From contig VXNZ01000046.1 of NCBI GenBank assembly GCA_009840355.1, positions 1-64,000 on the forward strand: a stretch of 64,000 bases of DNA. The letters are read 5' to 3'. Positions within the stretch are counted from its first letter, which is position 1. Each line of letters begins with the position of its first letter. Shown in pieces: positions 2,760 to 15,102 of this stretch. This DNA comes from Chloroflexota bacterium (GTDB lineage Bacteria; Chloroflexota; Dehalococcoidia; Lucifugimonadales; JADFKI01). The notes under the pieces were generated by a model that saw only the letters and a program-made list of their open reading frames with translations, made no database searches and was not told the origin of the DNA. The position numbers and the translations under genes are program-made.

Positions 2760-3011
2760 GGTGCTGGGGCAGGGGCACAGGCCAGGGGTGACGGCCTGAA
2801 GTCCCGGAAGAGAATTGCTAAACTCCCTCTCCCATATACGAATAGGAAGTGCTGCAGTTATGTAATCGTCTCCACGCAAAAGACGGTACCTACTTGCAGA
2901 GGTGAAAGCTGTGTAATGTAGTCCTCGTATGGTTAGAGACGAGGACACCGAATGTCTGGCAAATCAACGACGGACTGAATATTGTCAGGCATCCAGGCTA
3001 GGAGCATCAAA

Positions 3012-3950
3012 ATGACTGACAGGATCCCCCATGACTTACATGAATGGATGCAACAGCTTCAAGTTGACATGGCCATGCACTACGACCAGATCAGAAAACG
3101 GTCGAAGGAAGACCCCGGCACAGCTGGAGACCAAGGTGAAACTGATTGGGCTGAGTTGTTATCCGAATGGCTACCGCCCACGCTACAAGTCGTCACGAAA
3201 GGCCGAATAATCGGACCCGACGGTACCGTCAGCCCTCAAGTGGACGTGCTGGTGTTGAAGGATATATATCCCAAAGGGATGCTCAGAAGGAAGCTCTACC
3301 TGTCTGACGGGGTAGCGGCCGCCTTCGAATGCAAAACTACCCTGCGGGGCCGCCACATCACAGAGGCAATCGAGACATCCGTTAAGATCAAGCGACTAAG
3401 CCAAAAACGTGATGGAAGTCCCTACGCCGAACTGCACGCTCCCATCATCTATGGCCTTTTGGCTCATTCGCACAACTGGGTACAGGATAACTCACGACCC
3501 GAAGAAAATGTTACCACCAGGCTTTTGGAGGCGGATCGCCAGTTCGTTAACCACCCGCGAGATTGCTTAGACTTACTATGCGTGGCAGATTTGGGTATGT
3601 GGGCAAGTTGGAAATACACATACAATCTGCCATCGTATATCACCACTAAATTTGGGATGGCAGAAACAGCAGAAAGTCTTTACGCACTGTCCAGTGCTCA
3701 GCGTAACAGACCCATAGGAAGTTTGATCGCCTATTTGTCTTCACGGCTCGCGTGGGAGATTTCTTCCCTACGCTCGTTGGCAGATTATTATTCCCGGGTT
3801 AGCTTATTCGGAGGAGGAACGGCGTATAAGCGCAGCTGGCCAAGTTCAATATACAGCGATCCTGTCCGTCGCCGGGTAGAAGGAGGTCCGCTGCCCCCAC
3901 AGATACGCGGAGAGTGGAACGAATGGAGCAGCAGTTTCTCTTACTTTTGA
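3012..3950 (+). CDS. DUF6602-like protein, possible PD-(D/E)XK nuclease
   Basis: The 312-aa protein resembles DUF6602 proteins found beside restriction and abortive-infection genes. A conserved core has Asp78 in SPQVDVLVL and, 28 residues on, Glu106-Cys-Lys108 in AAFECKTTL. This spacing is that of the D...ExK nuclease motif. The ATG at 3012 is preferred over an in-frame TTG at 2982 because TAGGAGC lies just before it. Base composition is lower in GC than the preceding kinase, which fits acquired DNA. The gene sits between the kinase and a decayed partial copy of that kinase. The nuclease role is inferred from the motif alone; a substrate cannot be named. Confidence 0.6.
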   Translation: MTDRIPHDLHEWMQQLQVDMAMHYDQIRKRSKEDPGTAGDQGETDWAELLSEWLPPTLQVVTKGRIIGPDGTVSPQVDVLVLKDIYPKGMLRRKLYLSDGVAAAFECKTTLRGRHITEAIETSVKIKRLSQKRDGSPYAELHAPIIYGLLAHSHNWVQDNSRPEENVTTRLLEADRQFVNHPRDCLDLLCVADLGMWASWKYTYNLPSYITTKFGMAETAESLYALSSAQRNRPIGSLIAYLSSRLAWEISSLRSLADYYSRVSLFGGGTAYKRSWPSSIYSDPVRRRVEGGPLPPQIRGEWNEWSSSFSYF

Positions 3951-4710: not shown

Positions 4711-5127
4711 TCACCCTGTTCCAGCAATGAGCTTCTTCAGATTCGGCCATGTCCAATTATGGATCTTGTCTCGACGGCGGGCCGACCTAGGTCTTGTGCA
4801 AGTTTTTCTCCTGCGGCCCTTCAGCAGGAAGTACGACTTACCTTCTTCCTGCACGATAGTGACCTCGGCCGCAACACCCGCCGCTTGGTGCGTATGTTCA
4901 CCGCAAATCACAATGGTTAGGTCGGCCCTGCGGATGAGGTCGCGGACATTCCTCCGCCAGTTTTCTGAAATCGGCTCCTTTACCGACCAATCAGTGATGC
5001 TGAACGGGGACTCGGGATTCTTGGCCTGGGCGACCAGATTGCCTCGCAGGTCTTGATCGTTATCGTAGTCAAAGCTGATGAACACGCTCTTGGTATCCAA
5101 CCGAGTCTCCTGTATCTGTTGGTTCAA
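4711..5127 (-). CDS. TIR-like (DUF1863/ThsB-like) protein
   Basis: The protein is about 138 aa from a TTG start. It opens with the strand SVFISFDYDNDQDLR and contains SITDWSVKEPISENWRR and a second strand, ADLTIVICGE, followed by VAAEVTIVQEEGK. This is the flavodoxin-like fold of the MTH538 TIR family, used as NAD-consuming signal makers in Thoeris-type defence. The tail is Arg/Lys-rich. It is the third gene of a minus-strand operon, 69 nt after the membrane protein gene. The start has no strong ribosome site and could be misplaced. Confidence 0.65.
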   Translation of the reverse strand: MNQQIQETRLDTKSVFISFDYDNDQDLRGNLVAQAKNPESPFSITDWSVKEPISENWRRNVRDLIRRADLTIVICGEHTHQAAGVAAEVTIVQEEGKSYFLLKGRRRKTCTRPRSARRRDKIHNWTWPNLKKLIAGTG

Positions 5128-5196
5128 TTCAGGCCCACCGGTCAGGATAGGACGGGCCGCTTTGTGACTTGGATCGGATATGAACGACTTGCCAAG

Positions 5197-5724
5197 TCAG
5201 TGGTCGAAGATCAATTGCGCTACCGAATATATCACCAGTCCAAAGAACAGGAGGAACATTATCACGGGTATAAACTGCTCCACCCTCGTCAGCTGAAAGT
5301 ACTTGGGTGAGTCGTCCGGCGGCCGCAACAGATTCCATTCATCTGAATATCCCTGGGCCGGCAAACTCTTTTCTAATTTATTGATGACCGTAAACTTCGC
5401 CGTGTTCAGTGAGCGATATGACCTGATGTTCACCAGCCACACAACCGATAAGAAGGACCCAAACAGACCGCCCACTAAGAACACCACGGCCCAAACGTCA
5501 TTAGAAATGTTGAGCCTCGCCAGGATAACCAAGAGGGCGATCATGCCAGCCAGCAGACTCGCATAAAAGCGGTTCGATTGATCTCTGCGCTGGCTTATGC
5601 GATCAGCCATTTCGACGTAGAGCTTGTACTGCTCAAGGAGATGGGCTGAGTAGTTCTCACCGTACTCGTTGGGTTTCAAATGGAGTTCCTCCGAATCGCC
5701 CCGACAATTGAGCTTGTGTTCCAT
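5197..5724 (-). CDS. Small membrane protein between two TIR genes, candidate effector
   Basis: The 175-aa protein has a soluble amphipathic N-terminus containing LLEQYKLYVEMADRISQRR. Membrane helices follow at about 53-72, 77-100 and 148-170. The architecture resembles small membrane proteins (SLATT-like, or the RipA-type octameric family) that accompany TIR and nucleotide-signal genes. It overlaps the end of the upstream TIR gene by 49 nt, so translation is probably coupled. By analogy, a membrane-disrupting or channel effector triggered by the TIR product is plausible. No nucleotide-binding domain (Macro or SLOG) is attached. Confidence 0.65.
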   Translation of the reverse strand: MEHKLNCRGDSEELHLKPNEYGENYSAHLLEQYKLYVEMADRISQRRDQSNRFYASLLAGMIALLVILARLNISNDVWAVVFLVGGLFGSFLSVVWLVNIRSYRSLNTAKFTVINKLEKSLPAQGYSDEWNLLRPPDDSPKYFQLTRVEQFIPVIMFLLFFGLVIYSVAQLIFDH

Positions 5725-6086
5725 CCAACCATTTCTGTCGCGGCCGACTGAACTGCGACGGGAACACGCTGCGAGCCCCAGGGCCTAATCCCGACTACCG
5801 GCTTGTTATAGCTCTGGGCCACTTCGATCTCGTATTGAATCCAATCCCTGTAGGTCACATACATCCCTGAGATGATAAGGACTACATTGACCGGCCGAAT
5901 CTGTCGGTCGAGCGCCGCCATAAGTCGAGAGGCATTGTTTGCATCCAGTGGGTCGTGCTGGGGGACGCTGTAGTTTCGATATTTGAACCAATTGGCGTCA
6001 TCCAAGAATTGGACCAGCCTGTAATAGTCGTCGTCGTACGTCCAAGCATGACTGATGAACAGATCATAGGTCTTGAGGCTCGGCAC
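5676..6086 (-). CDS. ThsB-like TIR-domain protein
   Basis: This 136-aa single-domain protein starts YDLFISHAWTYDDDYYRLV. It continues with FKYRNYSVPQHDPLD, the strand VNVVLIISGMY, and the helix DWIQYEIEVAQ, whose Glu sits where TIR NADases carry the catalytic residue. The last strand is KPVVGIRPWG. It matches the TIR family of Thoeris ThsB, which senses infection and makes a cyclic nucleotide signal from NAD. The GTG start has GAGGAG nine bases upstream. It is first in a three-gene minus-strand operon and is divergent from the split gene at 6237. Confidence 0.8.
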   Translation of the reverse strand: MPSLKTYDLFISHAWTYDDDYYRLVQFLDDANWFKYRNYSVPQHDPLDANNASRLMAALDRQIRPVNVVLIISGMYVTYRDWIQYEIEVAQSYNKPVVGIRPWGSQRVPVAVQSAATEMVGWNTSSIVGAIRRNSI

Positions 6087-6236: not shown

Positions 6237-6557
6237 ATGTCCAAGAAAAACAAGCGTAAGGGCAGAGCGAGGGAACCCCAGCCTTTGGAATACCTCCTGA
6301 GGGCTGGAGAAGGCGTTCTCTATGGACAGGTCTGCTGGTCGATAGCTAACCGAGGGACTGAAAGGCCCAGATTAGGGGAGGTAATTACCCTTGAGGTCGG
6401 AAACGATGAGGGAGGCCATACTCGAAGGGCGTTTCGCCTCACCCGAAAGACTATCGAGAACATCCAACTGTGCTTGGGCATGAGGACCTGCGGAGAGGCC
6501 ATAGGAATGTTTGCTGAGGAAAGGGAGGCGGAATCCTCGGACGATCCAATGGGCGAG
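6237..6557 (+). pseudogene. 5' part of a gene split by an insertion sequence
   Basis: This encodes the first 107 residues of a basic-start protein (MSKKNKRKGRAREPQ...) ending ...DPMGE at the insertion point. The following TGA belongs to the insertion sequence. Removing the element and one copy of the 5-bp duplication joins codon GAG at 6555-6557 directly to TGC at 8318, in frame, giving a protein of about 470 aa. As it stands a truncated peptide is made. No family was recognised for this half. Confidence 0.75.
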
Positions 6558-6596
6558 TGAACAACGACATTTATAATGGCCGCTCGCGTTGCCTCA
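6558..6596 (+). repeat. Left terminal inverted repeat of the insertion sequence
   Basis: It begins TGAACAACGACA and includes TGGCCGCTC and GTTGCCTCA. Its reverse complement is found at 8274-8312 with seven mismatches. Confidence 0.85.
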
Positions 6597-6678
6597 ACAA
6601 AAAGGTTACCGAACTCCGAGCTATTGCCTCACGTTGATGTTACCGAAATAAGGTCATTGCCTCACAATGGGTGTTACC
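6588..6678 (+). repeat. Three spaced copies of a probable transposase-binding motif
   Basis: The motif TTGCCTCA, 8-9 bp, TTACC occurs at 6588-6610, 6623-6644 and 6656-6678, about 33-35 bp apart (three helical turns). The right end has one inverted copy at 8259-8282. Such arrays usually bind the transposase. The third copy overlaps the region just upstream of the transposase start, which would allow autoregulation. Confidence 0.6.
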
Positions 6679-6697
6679 CAAATCGAGGAGGCAAGAG

Positions 6698-8242
6698 GTG
6701 GCTGGAGAGATTAGCCTGGCGACGAGGACCGAAGTGCTCGGAGCAATTCGCAGCCGGTACGGAGAGGCATCGAAGAAGGATAAGAGTCGGATGCTGGATG
6801 AGTTCGTAGCCATGACGGGATGTCACCGAAAGCACGCGGTCAGACTACTTGGGCAAGGTGAAGATGCATCGACTAGGGCAGTTCCCAGGGGGCGGAAGAT
6901 ATACGGCGAGGCGGTGAAGGAGGCGCTGACCGTGGTGTGGGAGGCATCGGACAGGATATGCGGGAAGAGGCTGAAGGCCGCACTGCCGAGTATGGTGGAA
7001 TCACTTGAGAGACACGGGCATCTCGACCTGGACTCTGACGTGCGGCAGCGACTGTTCGCTGCCAGCGCTTCGACCATAGACAGACTGCTCAAGCCCATCA
7101 GGGAGCAGGCTGGCAGTCGAAGGAAGCGAAGACAGAAGAGGAAGATGGGAAGTCGCATCCCGGTGCGCACCTTCTCCGATTGGAATGAACCCGAACCTGG
7201 ATACCTGGAGATAGACTTGGTGGCTCACTGCGGAGAGTCCGTAGCGGGTTCGTTCATCAGCAGTCTCGTGGTGACCGACGTCTGCTCGGGCTGGACAGAA
7301 GCGATCCCACTGCTGGCGCGTGAGCAGTCGCTGGTGGTCGAAGGGCTGGAAGCCATCGCGCGGCTGTTCCCCGTCCCGATCCGCGGCATTGACTCCGACA
7401 ACGACAGCGTGTTCATCAACGAGACTCTGCTGAGCTACTGCCAGGAGCGGGACATAGAGTTCACACGCTCGCGTGCGCATCGCAGTAACGACCAAGCCTG
7501 GATAGAGCAGAAGAACGGATCCGTAATACGGCGCTTCGCCGGTCACAATCGCTACTCGGGACCGATAGCCGGTCAGGCTCTGGCCCACCTGTACGGCGCT
7601 ATGCGTCTGTACGTGAACCACTTCCAGCCCTCATTCAAGCTACTGGACAAGAGTCGTAACGGCGGCACAGCCAGGAAGAGGTACGAGAAACCTGCTACTC
7701 CCTGCGACCGTCTGCTCAGACGTGCCGACGTAAGCGAGGAGACGAAGCAGAGACTGAGGAACAGTCGAGTAGAGCTTGACCCCGTGTCGCTGCTGCACAC
7801 GATACGGGAGGCGCAATCGGCGCTTGCTTCGATCAAGGACTCTGCCCCTGTGAGTGCATCGACCAGCGAGAGTCTGGAGAAGTTCCTCGGCAGGCTGCCC
7901 GACCTGTGGAAACAGGGCGAAGTTCGTGCGACGCACGAGTCAGACGCGCAGAAGGCGAGAAAGCCTCACACGTGGCGGACACGCGCTGACCCGTTCGAAG
8001 GAGTGTGGTGCGAGATACTGGACTGGCTTCAGTGCAAGCCGGACGCCACGGCCAGGGAGTTGCTGGATCGGTTGATACGCCGTCATCCTGAGCGCTTCAG
8101 CAGGAGTCACCTCCGAACGCTGCAACGCCGAGTACGACAGTGGCGTAGGGTTATGGCGCGAGAGCTGGTGTATGCTTCTGGTGAACGGAGTGAAATGATT
8201 GAGGCTGACCAAAGGAACATCAGACCCGTGGGCGTCAATTAG
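6698..8242 (+). CDS. DDE transposase with integrase catalytic core
   Basis: The protein is 514 aa from a GTG start with a perfect AGGAGG six bases upstream; an in-frame GTG at 6671 lacks this. An N-terminal helix-turn-helix (MTGCHRKHAVRLL) precedes the rve core with Asp173 (YLEIDLV), Asp234 (GIDSDND) and Glu270 (DQAWIEQKNG), a D-35-E spacing. The C-terminal third has further basic helices. The catalytic residues are all present and no frameshift is seen, so it is probably functional. Confidence 0.9.
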   Translation: MAGEISLATRTEVLGAIRSRYGEASKKDKSRMLDEFVAMTGCHRKHAVRLLGQGEDASTRAVPRGRKIYGEAVKEALTVVWEASDRICGKRLKAALPSMVESLERHGHLDLDSDVRQRLFAASASTIDRLLKPIREQAGSRRKRRQKRKMGSRIPVRTFSDWNEPEPGYLEIDLVAHCGESVAGSFISSLVVTDVCSGWTEAIPLLAREQSLVVEGLEAIARLFPVPIRGIDSDNDSVFINETLLSYCQERDIEFTRSRAHRSNDQAWIEQKNGSVIRRFAGHNRYSGPIAGQALAHLYGAMRLYVNHFQPSFKLLDKSRNGGTARKRYEKPATPCDRLLRRADVSEETKQRLRNSRVELDPVSLLHTIREAQSALASIKDSAPVSASTSESLEKFLGRLPDLWKQGEVRATHESDAQKARKPHTWRTRADPFEGVWCEILDWLQCKPDATARELLDRLIRRHPERFSRSHLRTLQRRVRQWRRVMARELVYASGERSEMIEADQRNIRPVGVN

Positions 8243-8273
8243 AAGCTGCGAAAGTCTTGGTAACATAATCCAA

Positions 8274-8312
8274 TGAGGCAACAGGAGCGGCCAGAATAAT
8301 TGTCGTTGACCA
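8274..8312 (-). repeat. Right terminal inverted repeat of the insertion sequence
   Basis: Read on the minus strand it starts TGGTCAACGACA and continues through TGGCCGCTC to GTTGCCTCA, pairing with 6558-6596. GCGAG follows directly outside at 8313-8317. Confidence 0.85.
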
Positions 8313-8317
8313 GCGAG

Positions 8318-9409
8318 TGCCCTCATGGTCATCAGGAAGCGGCTCTTGCGTACATGATGTACGGCATCGAGCCGAGTGAGCCATGCCCGAATTGCGGAGA
8401 GATACCCATCTTCTCCAACCCATCGATGAGCCTCGACCTCAATCCTGACGGGCCAGTCAAGGGTGTGGACGGGTCGGAATACACTGAGTGCCCACAGTGT
8501 GGAGACTCATTCTTGGAACTTCAAGGGTCTAACCCTGTGGAGTGGGGATGGAAGATAGTCTGCCTGAGCTGTGAGTGGGAGATCAAGCAGGCGGAAAGCC
8601 TTGACATAGCCCAGTACTGCGACCTCATGGAGGAGGTCAAGGACAGGATTGAATCGATCAACCAGCTGATGGAGCTTCCTGGAATCACGATTCAGACTCG
8701 CGTGGAATCAATCTGTCTCCAGCTCCGGATGCTACTGGAACTGATCGTGTTCAGTTCCTTGGTGTCAAATAAGGACGTCTGGCAGAGATCGCAGAAGGAG
8801 CTCAAGAGCTCGCAGGACATAAGCAAGAAACTGAGAGAACTTAAGCGCCTCCATCCCAATTTCTATCCGAGGGCCGTAGACTTGGAGGCAGGACTACGTG
8901 GAGCCGAACCGAGGGATCGGCAAGAGGGTTTCCTGAGTGAAGACAAGTTGACAGAGGTGTACGGGCGGCTGGGCAACATTCTCCACGCCGAGAACCCTCT
9001 GGGTAGAGAGACCGATTACCGTTACTTCATAGACGCGGTTCCAGAATGGCTCTCTCAAGTCACCAGCCTTATGGAGTACCATAAGGTATACCTTTATCAC
9101 CATCCGGAGGAGTTCTATCTGATCAAGATGTTCGGAGACGTGGATGTAGAGCTGCTGTGCATCCGCTTCAAGACGACCGCCGAAGGAAAGACGAAGTGCG
9201 CATGGCCGGACTGCGTCTCCTCCAGCGCGCGTCAGTACTGCGAATACATCCAACGGCCCTGGATGGAATGTCGGCTTCTGGAGATAGAACCTCAACAAAC
9301 ACAAGGCAAGCGGATAGCAGAAGGACTAAACATAGGCGCGGGGGAGGCTGAGGTGGGAGTCCAGGGAGCAGGCATGCCCGTAGGAAACGGACACCTGAGC
9401 CGAGTCTGA
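8318..9409 (+). pseudogene. 3' part of the split gene: zinc-ribbon protein
   Basis: The 363 codons continue the reading frame broken at 6557. Two Cys pairs near the start (CPHGH with CPNC, then CPQC with CLSC) suggest two zinc ribbons. A long helical region follows (about 95-250 of this part), then a Cys-containing tail (CAWPDCVSSSARQYC). A TTG at 8300 inside the insertion sequence could restart translation and make MSLTS-ECPHGH..., so the C-terminal part may still be expressed. No function is recognised. Its place between a TIR operon and a large defence-like operon suggests a defence role. Confidence 0.7.
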
Positions 9410-9590
9410 GCATAGGCACGGGCTCTTGATGCGACTTCGGAATAGCCTAAGTGGGTGAGTGTGTCTGATGGACTCAATGCAGTCTGGTTACCTTGGAGCC
9501 ACGGATTGACGTATTGTACGACGTTGGTATACATTAGCCGATATATACTGAGAATGAGCTGCATAGCAGGGTACCAGGCTGGAATTGCTT

Positions 9591-9818
9591 ATGGAAGCAA
9601 GGGATACTCGTTGGATTTCTGTCACTGAAGTTGCCCGGCATCTGGGTGTAGCCCGCGACACTGTGTACCGTTGGATCGACTCCAGAGGATTGCCGGCTCA
9701 CCGAGTTGGTCGCTTCTGGAAGTTTCAATTGTCCGAGGTTGACGCATGGGTAAAGTCAGGAGAGGCGGAAGTTCCCAACAACGCAGACTTAGGCGATTTG
9801 ACAAGACGGAAACGTTAG
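9591..9818 (+). CDS. Excisionase-like helix-turn-helix protein
   Basis: The 75-aa protein is a single HTH_17-type DNA-binding domain: WISVTEVARHLGVARDTVYRWI, then PAHRVGRFWKFQLSEVDAWV. Such proteins act as excisionases or small repressors. The ATG at 9591 is used rather than TTG at 9585. The stop is 3 nt before the methylase gene, so it heads the eight-gene operon and may control it or direct its mobility. No integrase is present nearby. Confidence 0.75.
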   Translation: MEARDTRWISVTEVARHLGVARDTVYRWIDSRGLPAHRVGRFWKFQLSEVDAWVKSGEAEVPNNADLGDLTRRKR

Positions 9819-9821
9819 AGC

Positions 9822-11351
9822 ATGGAACGCATCGATACTCTGCGGCAACCCTCCTCACCGGCGGCAAAGGCGGCTTCGGCTCCCCTTGTCTTCGCGGATC
9901 TCTCTATCACTGACGACGAGCGCGGTGACCATGACACTGTGGTCGTTTCTGAGGCGATTCGTCAAGGCGCACAAGGAAGGCAGCACAGCGGTGCAGAGAG
10001 TCAGGAGGGGCGAGTAGTTAAGGGACCTCCTTCCCATGACGTATCAGTAATGCAGCCGTTCTCCAACTACGTTGGGTCGATTGAGCGGCTGGCAAGGACA
10101 GTGGTGTCTGCAGGCTTAGGTGACCTAACTGCCGAAGCGACTCCTGTTCTAAACGGTGGACCAGGGGAAGCACTCCGAAAAGCTGTCGATCTTGTCACGC
10201 GCAAATCGACTGGGGCCTTCTTCAGCAGCTCCGATTTGTCGGATGAACTTGTCAGTACCCTTGCGAAGCCCATAAACGAAGATTCTAGGATTCTCGATCC
10301 AGCTTGCGGGTCCGGCGACTTGCTGCTGGCATGCTCACGTCATTTGCCCATAGCGGCTAGCCTGGTTGATACGCTCGAATCTTGGGGCCAACAGCTGTAT
10401 GGCCTCGACCTATATCCGGAGTTTATTCGTGCCACCCGAGCGAGGTTAGTACTGGCTGCCGCTCTCCGTGGTCGATGGAATGCAACGCAAGGGCTTGCAG
10501 AATCCGAATCTTGGTTTCCCGGGATCAGGGTCGGAGACGGTTTGGCGATTCCGAAGGACTTGGCACAAGCTACGCATGTCGTACTCAACCCCCCGTTTAA
10601 CCTCATCCAGACGCCCCAGGACGTAGAGTGGTCCAGTGGTCAGGTGTCGGCGGCAGCCGTGTTTCTGAATCACGTATTTGTTGCGTGTAAGGATGAGACC
10701 AATGTAGTGGCGATACTGCCGGACGTACTGAGGTCGGGAACTCGGTATGGAAGATGGCGCGAAAACATTAGCCAACAGGCTACTGTCAGGCGCGTCTCGA
10801 TTTGGGGGACATTTGACCCTTGGGCGGATGTGGACGTGTTCTTATTTGAGGCCTTGATCCGCAGTGGCAGCTTCGAAACCTCAATGGCTGCCTGGACTGG
10901 ACCCAAAGAAACGGAGGTTACGGCTACATTGAGTACAGTCGCAAAGGTCTCCGTCGGGTCTTTGGTGCCTCATCGTCACAGCAATCGAGGCCGTTGGCAT
11001 CCGTACCTGCATGCCTTGGGTTTAGCAAAATGGGGGACGGTCAAAGTTGTTGACCTTCCCAAGAAGCGCTTCAACGGGACGGTCTTCGCCCCACCGTTCG
11101 TGGTCGTGCGCCGCACTTCGCGTCCAGGCGATTCTGGCCGTGCGATCGGCACAGTGATACTCGGAGACAGACCCGTTGCTGTGGAGAACCACCTTATGGT
11201 CGTTAAACCCAAGGATGCCACCCTTGACACCTGTCTACAGATTTTGGATCTGCTACGAAGTGACGCGACAGATAGGTGGCTTGACCATCGGATTAGATGC
11301 CGGCATCTAACTGTTAGTGCCCTAAACGACCTACCTTGGCAGGCCGACTGA
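9822..11351 (+). CDS. N6-adenine DNA methylase-like protein
   Basis: The 509-aa protein has an unconserved start, then STGAFFSSSDLSDELV, the SAM-binding motif I DPACGSGD (159-166) and the catalytic motif NPPF (256-259), as in HsdM and type IIG enzymes. The last 130 residues include PPFVVVRRTSRPG, AVENHLMV and RIRCRHLTVSALNDLPW, typical of the target-recognition end of Eco57I-type methylases. No nuclease domain or restriction gene is nearby. It may methylate host DNA so that the downstream sensor or ABC ATPase ignores it, or act as a DNA-binding sensor. It ends 1 nt before the next gene. Confidence 0.8.
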   Translation: MERIDTLRQPSSPAAKAASAPLVFADLSITDDERGDHDTVVVSEAIRQGAQGRQHSGAESQEGRVVKGPPSHDVSVMQPFSNYVGSIERLARTVVSAGLGDLTAEATPVLNGGPGEALRKAVDLVTRKSTGAFFSSSDLSDELVSTLAKPINEDSRILDPACGSGDLLLACSRHLPIAASLVDTLESWGQQLYGLDLYPEFIRATRARLVLAAALRGRWNATQGLAESESWFPGIRVGDGLAIPKDLAQATHVVLNPPFNLIQTPQDVEWSSGQVSAAAVFLNHVFVACKDETNVVAILPDVLRSGTRYGRWRENISQQATVRRVSIWGTFDPWADVDVFLFEALIRSGSFETSMAAWTGPKETEVTATLSTVAKVSVGSLVPHRHSNRGRWHPYLHALGLAKWGTVKVVDLPKKRFNGTVFAPPFVVVRRTSRPGDSGRAIGTVILGDRPVAVENHLMVVKPKDATLDTCLQILDLLRSDATDRWLDHRIRCRHLTVSALNDLPWQAD

Positions 11352-11352
11352 G

Positions 11353-13410
11353 ATGATGAGCGAGCACCTACGATTCTCTCCCGACATTTTGCGTCGCCTT
11401 GGCGAAGAGCTTGTTCCTCAAATCGAACAAGGAATCGTCGAATTGGTCCGAAACTCCTACGATGCCGACGCCGTAAGTTGTCGAGTCGAACTCGTAGGCG
11501 TGGACAAGTTGGGAGGCACCCTCCGGATTGAGGATGACGGATTGGGAATGGACTACGACGCCATCCGGTCAGGCTGGCTCATCCTCGGACGATCAAACAA
11601 ACCGGGCCGTAGCCTAACGGCACTGGGCAGGAGGCCTGTCGGCGAAAAGGGGCTGGGCAGGTTGGCTGCGCTACGGATGGGCCGCCGCGTAACGCTGAGT
11701 ACTCGACCGGCTTCGAAGCCTTTGACTGAATACACGCTGGAAATAGACTGGTCTAAGTTTGAAGCGATAAGTGTAGTGGAAGATGTAGCCTTAGAGGTCA
11801 TCGAGGGATCGACTAAGAAACCTCCAGGCACCTCCATCGAGGTTACGGATCTATCCGTGACGTTTGGGCGCCGCGAAGTCGAACGGCTTGCCAGAGCGCT
11901 GCTGCTATTGGCCGACCCATTTGACGATAGCCAGGGATTTCACCCTGTATTGATATCTCCTGAGTTCTACGATCTGGAGCAGCGAGTGCGGAACGCATAC
12001 TTCGATGACGCGGTGTACTACATGCATGCAGAGCTCGACAAGCAGGGACGGTCGCACGTCGATGTGTACGATCCCAGAACCAAGGCACTTCGGTGGTCAG
12101 GACAAAATGCTGACCTGTCCAAGACTACATACTCTACGGTGGCGTCCGAATTCGAACTGTGGGCTTTCCTGCTCGATGGGGCTAGCTTCACAAATCGCCG
12201 CGCGACAGTTACGGAGGTGAGGAACTGGCTTGAAGTTATAGGTGGTGTCCACCTCTACCACCGAGGATTGCGAGTTCATCCGTACGGAGATTCGGGGCAC
12301 GATTGGCTCGACATGAATTTGCTCAGAACCAGAAATCCGGAGCTGCGACCTTCAACTAATACGTCGATTGGTCGAGTCATCGTCCCTGACCCGGATCAGA
12401 TCCTCACGGAGAAGACTGACCGAACAGGGTTTCTGGAGAGTTCAGCCTTTAGTGAGATGCGCCGCTTCGCGATCGACTCACTGGAATGGATGGCCCGTCA
12501 GAGGCTTGATGAACGAGAGACCAAGAAACGAAAGAGCAAAGCGAGTACCTCATCTGGCATAACGCGGGCCCGCAACAGACTACGCAAGGAGGTAGATGTC
12601 CTGCCACCCGAGCAACGTTCACGTGTATCGCAGGCCGTGCAGAGTTTGGAGACCGTTAGACAAAGGCAGGAGGCAATTCTGCGGGAGGACCTTCAGCTTT
12701 ATCGAACGCTGGCCAGTCTGGGCACAACAATTGCCGTGTTCGCGCACGAGGCTGCCAAGCCAGTCGGGCAAATCAAAAGCATGGCGCATAGCATAGGTCG
12801 CAGGGGCAAGAGAGAACTGGGACCAGCCTATCACAACGTGTTGGAAACACCCGTCTCAATAGTCCTAAAGTCAGCAAGGGCTCTGGAGAGCTATGCTTCT
12901 TTTCCGTTAGCAATGCTCCGGCGGGAGAAGCGACGCTTTGGTGAGGTCGACATCAATTCCGTGGCACTCGACATCATAGAGCTGTTTCAACCCTTTCTGG
13001 AAGACTCCAAGATCTCTTGTAAGGCACGGCTCGATGAAGGTCGGCCAAGAGTCTGGGGTAGCGTAGCTGCACTTGAATCCATCCTTAGCAATCTAATCAC
13101 TAACGCGGTCAACGCCTTTAGCCAACAGCAGCAAGCTCAACTGGAGCGCGAGATTCTGGTTGCGACTCAAGTGAGCGAATCCTCACTGCTCATCTCAGTT
13201 AAGGACAACGGACCAGGGATCATAGAGCTGCCAATTGAAGAAATCTGGCTCCCAGGTCGTACGAGCATACCCGGAGGCACGGGTCTGGGACTGACCATAG
13301 TCAGGGATGCTGTCACTGATCTTGGCGGAGACGTTCACGCAATAGCCAATGGGGAGCTGGGGGGTGCCGAGATCGTTGTGACTCTACCGTTAATGGGAGT
13401 TGAAGGATGA
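11353..13410 (+). CDS. Double-GHKL protein: Hsp90-like ATPase joined to a histidine-kinase-like domain
   Basis: The 685-aa protein opens with a complete Hsp90/MutL-like ATP site: ELVRNSYDADA (N-box), EDDGLGMD and VGEKGLGR. A middle region with a coiled stretch (about 380-455) follows. A second module has a kinase-like H-box with His465 in VFAHEAAKPV, NLITNAVNAF, KDNGPGI and GGTGLGLTIV. Residues for ATP binding are present in both. The next gene, overlapping by 4 nt (ATGA), encodes a receiver, so phosphotransfer from His465 is likely. The front half may sense protein or nucleic acid partners by ATP-driven clamping. No membrane segment is seen. Confidence 0.85.
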   Translation: MMSEHLRFSPDILRRLGEELVPQIEQGIVELVRNSYDADAVSCRVELVGVDKLGGTLRIEDDGLGMDYDAIRSGWLILGRSNKPGRSLTALGRRPVGEKGLGRLAALRMGRRVTLSTRPASKPLTEYTLEIDWSKFEAISVVEDVALEVIEGSTKKPPGTSIEVTDLSVTFGRREVERLARALLLLADPFDDSQGFHPVLISPEFYDLEQRVRNAYFDDAVYYMHAELDKQGRSHVDVYDPRTKALRWSGQNADLSKTTYSTVASEFELWAFLLDGASFTNRRATVTEVRNWLEVIGGVHLYHRGLRVHPYGDSGHDWLDMNLLRTRNPELRPSTNTSIGRVIVPDPDQILTEKTDRTGFLESSAFSEMRRFAIDSLEWMARQRLDERETKKRKSKASTSSGITRARNRLRKEVDVLPPEQRSRVSQAVQSLETVRQRQEAILREDLQLYRTLASLGTTIAVFAHEAAKPVGQIKSMAHSIGRRGKRELGPAYHNVLETPVSIVLKSARALESYASFPLAMLRREKRRFGEVDINSVALDIIELFQPFLEDSKISCKARLDEGRPRVWGSVAALESILSNLITNAVNAFSQQQQAQLEREILVATQVSESSLLISVKDNGPGIIELPIEEIWLPGRTSIPGGTGLGLTIVRDAVTDLGGDVHAIANGELGGAEIVVTLPLMGVEG

Positions 13411-14108
13411 ATGCGGAGCAAACGAGGGTTGCCCTAGTTGATGACGACCCTACTGCCGCCGCGACATTGAGTGTTCTACTAGAAGATGCTGGGTTTGAGG
13501 CCATTGAAGTAGAACATCCGCTTGAAAGCGTTGATGGAGCTGTTGCTCGAATCAAGAGCGTCGCTACGGCAGCCATATGTGATCATCGCCTGAGTCCCCG
13601 AGGCCTCGCGTCATTCAGCGGGGCAGAACTTGTCGCCCAGTTGTATTCCACGGCATTTCCAGCGGTGCTGATTAGCCAATACTTCAAGATCGACCAGAAC
13701 GTATCGATCCGAAAATATAGAAGCAGGATCCCCATATTGCTTGCGCGGGACGAAGTCGGACCAGACCAACTTGCCGATGCAATCAGGGTTTGCTCAGATG
13801 AGATCGGCGGCAGGCGTTTGCCGCAGAGAAAGGGTTGGCGGTCCCTAGTTCGGGTGGTCGCAAAGGATATTGAGGGTGGCGAAGATGTACTCGATGCCAT
13901 CATACCTGGCTGGCGCCCAGATGAAGCAGTGAGATTTCCAGCCGAACTTCTTGGTCATCACAGGAACTCATTGCCGGCCGGACGAAGTGATCGGCTTGAA
14001 CTTCGCTTTTTTGCGAGCGTCAATATCGGCGCTGAGGATGCTGGCGACTTATATCTAGAGGACTTTGAACCCGCCATTGAGCCACAGAATGGAACAATTC
14101 TCTCCTAA
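13407..14108 (+). CDS. Receiver-domain protein with an unrecognised C-terminal domain
   Basis: In this 233-aa protein residues 7-130 form a response-regulator receiver, with acidic Asp12-14 in VALVDDDP, probable phospho-acceptor Asp59 in ICDHRLS and the switch Ser in AVLIS. The usual Lys-Pro after strand five is missing (PILLARDEV). Signalling may therefore be altered, or the domain may act as a decoy. The C-terminal 100 residues are not a known DNA-binding output. The gene is coupled to the kinase by an ATGA overlap and to the MBL gene by a 20-nt overlap. The partner kinase is almost certainly the product of 11353-13410. Confidence 0.75.
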   Translation: MNAEQTRVALVDDDPTAAATLSVLLEDAGFEAIEVEHPLESVDGAVARIKSVATAAICDHRLSPRGLASFSGAELVAQLYSTAFPAVLISQYFKIDQNVSIRKYRSRIPILLARDEVGPDQLADAIRVCSDEIGGRRLPQRKGWRSLVRVVAKDIEGGEDVLDAIIPGWRPDEAVRFPAELLGHHRNSLPAGRSDRLELRFFASVNIGAEDAGDLYLEDFEPAIEPQNGTILS

Positions 14109-15102
14109 CCTGACAATCCTGGATGTAGGACACGGACAGTGCGTGGTACTTCAAGACGCACTCGGAATCGTGATCTTCGATGCGGGTTTAGGAGCGACAC
14201 TGCTGGAATTCCTGCAAGAATGCGCGATTACCCAGATTGATGCGGTCATAATCTCTCATGCGGATGCTGACCACATATCGGGACTCTTGGCGCTTCTATC
14301 GGCAGCGACTGTACAGGTCCGGCATGTCTACTTGAATTCAGACGCAACCAAGAACTCCGACATATGGGAGGACCTCCGGTACGCGATTGCAGACGCCACA
14401 GCAAGGGCGTCTATTAGTGTAAGCGTCGAACTTACTACGAGCAGCACCCAGCAATTTACACGGGGAGACGTTCAGATCGAAATTCTTTACCCCCAGCCAG
14501 CTGTGGCAATGGCAGGCCCTGGTGGAACTGATCTGAAGGGGCGTAAATTGACCTCCAATTCTATGTCCGCTGTCTCGCGCGTCAGTTATCAGTCGGTACC
14601 TCGGCTTCTGCTGACGGGCGACTTAGACGCGGTAGGTCTGGAGAACTTACTGGAGACTTTTCCGTCGCCGCGATCAGAGGTGTTGGTCTTTCCTCATCAC
14701 GGTGGACTGCCATCTCGCGCAAACCCTGTGGAATTCGCTAGCTTACTGGGCCAAGTTGTGCAACCAAGCTTGATCGTGTTCTCGATTGGCCGCGGTAAGT
14801 ATCAGACACCACGTCCCGAAATCGTCGCGGGGATCAGGCGCGTACTGCCTGGGGTTACCATTGCTTGTACCCAGTTGTCGGCACATTGTTCTGCGAGTGT
14901 TCCTTCTACTGACCCAACTCATTTGGAATCAATTGCAGCAAGAGGGCGCGTAAGTCATTCCTGCTGCGCAGGTTCAATTCGCATGGTCCTTGAACCTAGT
15001 AGCATCCGATATTTGAATGATCTACAGGGCCATCAAGATTTTATTGCTGCTAACGCCCCATCTGCCCTATGTAAGAGAGCTTGGCGGAGCTCATCCCTTT
15101 AA
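14089..15102 (+). CDS. Metallo-beta-lactamase-fold hydrolase, ComEC C-domain-like
   Basis: The protein is 337 aa from ATG 14089, which fits the family better than an in-frame TTG at 14065. Motifs are LDVGHGQCVVL, FDAG, the metal site HADADH (57-62), NSMSAVSRV, LLTGDLD, VFPHHGG and the late IGRGKYQTPRPEI. This is the soluble MBL family related to the ComEC competence domain, probably a two-metal nuclease or phosphodiesterase. There are no membrane helices, so it is not a DNA channel. Its place between a receiver gene and a SIR2 gene suggests an effector or signal-degrading role. Confidence 0.8.
   Translation: MEQFSPNLTILDVGHGQCVVLQDALGIVIFDAGLGATLLEFLQECAITQIDAVIISHADADHISGLLALLSAATVQVRHVYLNSDATKNSDIWEDLRYAIADATARASISVSVELTTSSTQQFTRGDVQIEILYPQPAVAMAGPGGTDLKGRKLTSNSMSAVSRVSYQSVPRLLLTGDLDAVGLENLLETFPSPRSEVLVFPHHGGLPSRANPVEFASLLGQVVQPSLIVFSIGRGKYQTPRPEIVAGIRRVLPGVTIACTQLSAHCSASVPSTDPTHLESIAARGRVSHSCCAGSIRMVLEPSSIRYLNDLQGHQDFIAANAPSALCKRAWRSSSL

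Follow-up and report, generated by a model that had tools for sequence, protein, structure and literature searches.

The window, the whole 64,000-nucleotide stretch analysed here, contains a gene split in two by an insertion sequence (IS). The 5′ part of the gene (6237..6557, plus strand, 107 codons) is separated from the 3′ part (8318..9409, plus strand, 363 codons and a stop) by a 1755-bp DDE transposon of the IS481/ISNCY kind (6558..8312, plus strand). Upstream on the minus strand lie divergent, defence-like neighbours (4711..6086): a ThsB-type TIR protein (5676-6086), an 8xMP membrane protein (5197-5724) and a second TIR-like protein (4711-5127), which may form a TIR-plus-membrane-effector defence unit. 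Downstream on the plus strand is a module (9594..15102) of helix-turn-helix (HTH), N6-methyltransferase, MORC/GHKL ATPase, response-regulator-like and metallo-beta-lactamase (MBL) fold genes, with genes for a weakly SIR2-like protein and an SMC/LmuB-like ATPase further on. The TIR and methyltransferase/MORC-type genes bear out the defence neighbourhood proposed in the preliminary description.

To the left, a further defence-like gene of the island (2982-3950) encodes a DUF6602 protein that PADLOC matched to nucleases of the PD-DExK/NucC type. A histidine-kinase/response-regulator gene (198-2752) has several 67-81% similar copies in the same genome and in the congener G001. When the window was compared with four congeners, positions 2.8-19.7 kb gave no DNA match except for the IS and one weak 8xMP match. 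Because this region is unmatched in all four, unlike the sequence past 20 kb (20-39.5 kb has a DNA match in each of them), we treat it as an accessory island of ~17 kb. We infer that the island was acquired horizontally.

Direct reading of the sequence placed copies of GCGAG at 6553-6557 and 8313-8317, the left and right target-site duplications (TSDs) that bracket the element. The chance of an exact 5-bp match at that fixed place is ~1/1024. A T follows GCGAG at both copies, and a 6-bp repeat (GCGAGT) is possible, judging by this one copy; the joined sequence is identical in either case. The left open reading frame (ORF) reaches 6557 and is stopped by TGA, the first codon of the element. The frame at 8318-9409 is in phase with it, and the joined frame runs for 470 codons with 0 stops. 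The inserted length (1755 + 5 bp) is not a multiple of three, and only the flanks are mutually in frame. The in-frame split by an IS with an exact GCGAG duplication, as first described, was thus confirmed by the sequence, by the recurring element tips (see below) and by the 470-codon joined frame. This finding applies to one assembled genome, that of the sampled strain.

To assess the continuity of the gene, genome contigs and relatives were searched for homologues across the junction. Two uninterrupted homologues, L008 (CATOSI010000002.1, the same record as L010, genome G117) and L011 (genome G143), span it as single open frames, both in Dehalococcoidia-type genomes. The 5′ part of the window gene can be aligned to the N-terminal region of the intact proteins (P0001/P0002). 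Protein identity to L008 was 55% for the left half and 71% for the right half; across both intact homologues it was ~47-55% and ~65-71%, respectively. A third relative, L009, lacks the N-terminal ~80 residues, and its frame is nevertheless conserved; because conservation starts at about residue 78 (~340 codons kept), its homology also crosses the junction. The homologues therefore neither end at the junction nor assign the two halves to different families, the two outcomes that would have spoken against a single ~470-aa gene. That the halves were never one gene, their joined frame being a coincidence, has a negligible probability, since L008 and L011 cross the junction as single open frames and chance joining is thereby rejected. 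The two halves are one once-continuous gene. C-terminal tails differ within the family, and the tail of the window protein is ~20-25 residues longer than in the homologues. Some form of the gene occurred in just 8 of the 250 genomes searched in the order.

We next describe the element itself. Its terminal inverted repeats (TIRs; left 6558..6596, plus strand; right 8274..8312, minus strand) are imperfect and ~39 bp long (TGAACAACGACATTTATAATGGCCGCTCGCGTTGCCTCA and TGGTCAACGACAATTATTCTGGCCGCTCCTGTTGCCTCA). An inner motif of the left repeat, TTGCCTCA, is found again at 6624-6631 and 6657-6664, and these copies are likely extra transposase-binding sites. A search with the 27-bp tip matched the window twice (0 expected), the complete genome at 5 places and G001 at 23; a reversed control gave 0 matches. 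Because the tip pattern recurs (23 times in G001), the correctness of the element ends does not rest on the duplication alone. Related elements also terminate at these tips. Most of the element is covered by its one long ORF (6671..8242, plus strand), which encodes a 523-aa transposase with an rve integrase core (Pfam rve, E = 3.4e-10, above cut-off).

The transposase scored 45.3 bits against the NCBIfam IS481 equivalog model (cut-off 224), and because this is under the cut-off we did not file the element as IS481 proper. Nor did we file it as IS1202, because its tips are TGAA and TGGT instead of TGT; outer tips of TGT...ACA are the criterion for the IS1202 family, here its ISAjo2 group (PMC10132070). 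Plasmid-borne transposase relatives, 45-49% identical over most of their length, carry the annotation ISNCY or DDE transposase. The rhizobial relatives L062 and L063 appear, from their flanks, to carry 6-bp duplications.

DNA relatives of the element were spread over the order, with a match in 27 of 197 genomes; many of these matches were only partial. In G001 (L087-L100) and in the genome of the window (L101 and L102), numerous ends of this family stand solo or on one side only, some of them just 27-45 bp long. One, L087, is a miniature element of ~65 bp made of a left tip and a right tip. Another near-full copy (L031 318-2019, contig C20 of genome G000) is 92% identical and has no recognisable outer 26 bp, symmetrically at both ends.

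To assess whether the interrupted gene had decayed, we compared each half with the intact copies. Pairwise dN was far below dS in either half, with dS close to saturation. Private residues numbered 8 in the left half of the window copy, against 10 and 16 in the intact copies, and 18 in the right half, against 34 and 56. We saw no stops or frameshifts in the 470 joined codons. Given this low dN, and because the window copy holds the fewest unique residues, no relaxed selection is visible. Neither half shows decay, which makes the insertion young when set against how far the gene has diverged and agrees with its being recent, as originally proposed.

An open 3′ frame could also mean that this half is still a working gene, cotranscribed with the transposase and translated without the N-terminal domain. 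In-frame TTG codons at 8300 and 8306 (8300..8317, plus strand) may provide a new start behind AGGAG at 8283-8287, and the 3′ half is co-oriented with the transposase. Two comparisons are compatible with this reading: L009 is N-terminally shortened yet conserved over its remaining codons, and the middle domain occurs alone in other proteins. However, a TTG start and a 12-nt spacing are weak initiation signals, a consensus scan found no outward promoter at the IS end, and the insertion is possibly too young for decay of the 3′ half to show. We consider a working 3′ gene unlikely. A stronger version, in which the IS acts as a gene editor whose right end gives the start for a trimmed working protein, reversibly by excision, is less probable still. 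Because the 3′ frame is open and has possible in-frame starts, function may have been lost only in part.

The preliminary description had raised reversible switching, in which precise excision restores a costly defence gene in part of the population and so turns it on and off. The exact duplication and the intact joined frame fit such switching, but both are expected of any young insertion. A 23-mer of the empty site was absent from the strain's own assembly and from viral contigs, and the related island in genome G039 lost the gene through truncation. Precise excision that restores the site is rare for DDE elements of this kind. The switching proposal thus found no positive support, and we regard it as very improbable.

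The G039 island was informative about the fate of the same gene. At the threshold used, the MORC-type ATPase was found in 1 other genome, G039, among 250 in the order. Its HTH-to-MBL module has ~81% DNA identity to window 9504-15071. In front of this module, at the position that the gene has in the window, we observed only its last ~75 residues, fused to unrelated sequence (L028 9046-9270, minus strand, adjoining L028 9925-11448). Each lineage has therefore had the gene broken in its own way, by an IS here and by a truncation in G039. No genomes other than these two were found to carry the methyltransferase/MORC module, and the independent truncation of this accessory gene in G039 suggests that it is dispensable to that module. 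Next to the remnant are a Cap15 protein and an ORF resembling a nucleotidyltransferase, a CBASS-like pair; the nucleotidyltransferase was assigned by eye from the sequence rather than by a model.

We searched the encoded protein for domains. Nothing scored above cut-off against Pfam, NCBIfam and PADLOC models, and neither half had a PADLOC defence-family match. The CxxC pairs, which bear on the zinc-ribbon label, are present and conserved among homologues, but the Pfam zinc-ribbon models scored below their cut-offs, and we treat the label as tentative. The 3′ part encodes the CxxC pairs, a helical middle domain (8600-9130) and a Cys-containing C-terminal module. The structure model of the whole protein was poor (pLDDT 57), so a fold search with it was not meaningful. 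The middle domain gave a confident predicted fold (pLDDT 85) without a significant PDB match. A HEPN-like identity, guessed from an Rx5H-like motif, was not supported: the R is absent in L011 and HEPN-type matches had E > 1.

The middle domain also exists as stand-alone proteins of ~200 residues, both elsewhere in Chloroflexota and on plasmids of proteobacteria. These stand-alone relatives (L058-L061, L045 and L046) include Halomonas and Paracoccus plasmids and one viral contig. A phage search gave no relatives, and viral contigs searched with the whole protein gave none; one stand-alone middle-domain relative, L061, was found among the viral contigs. The 470-residue protein and these relatives make up a small uncharacterised family. 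From place alone, we infer a defence role for the interrupted gene.

Taken together, our data make it highly probable that an IS recently entered a 470-codon accessory gene and knocked it out in the sampled strain. In the proposed sequence of events, a DDE IS of the IS481/ISNCY kind would have transposed in after codon 107, duplicating 5 bp. The element's own TGA would then end translation and leave a 107-residue fragment, presumably inactive. The gene lost in this way was probably a passenger that a horizontally acquired defence island could do without. IS knock-out of a gene is a common event among bacteria, and the knock-out here is most likely an ordinary event of this known kind. The locus offers a clean snapshot of gene loss within a mobile defence island.

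The literature on IS in defence genes provided general background only. Compared to insertionally inactivated genes of defence islands, the locus is the same in that an IS with a TSD splits an otherwise intact accessory gene; it differs in that the gene here fits no described defence family, its putative role being judged from its place. Relative to L008 and L011, the domain order is the same along the full length, whereas those copies are without the insertion and have other defence-like genes as neighbours. The element shares with IS481/ISNCY (IS1202-like) elements a DDE (rve) transposase, imperfect TIRs with TG tips and a short TSD, and a repeated inner binding-like motif is also common to both. 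Its features are likewise similar to those of the IS481 and IS1202 elements described previously (PMC10132070, PMC10045372). The ISAjo2 group of the IS1202 family has 5-bp TSDs and internal transposase sites (PMC10132070); at 1755 bp and 523 aa, the element described here is bigger than the members of that group (1.5 kb, 441-457 aa).
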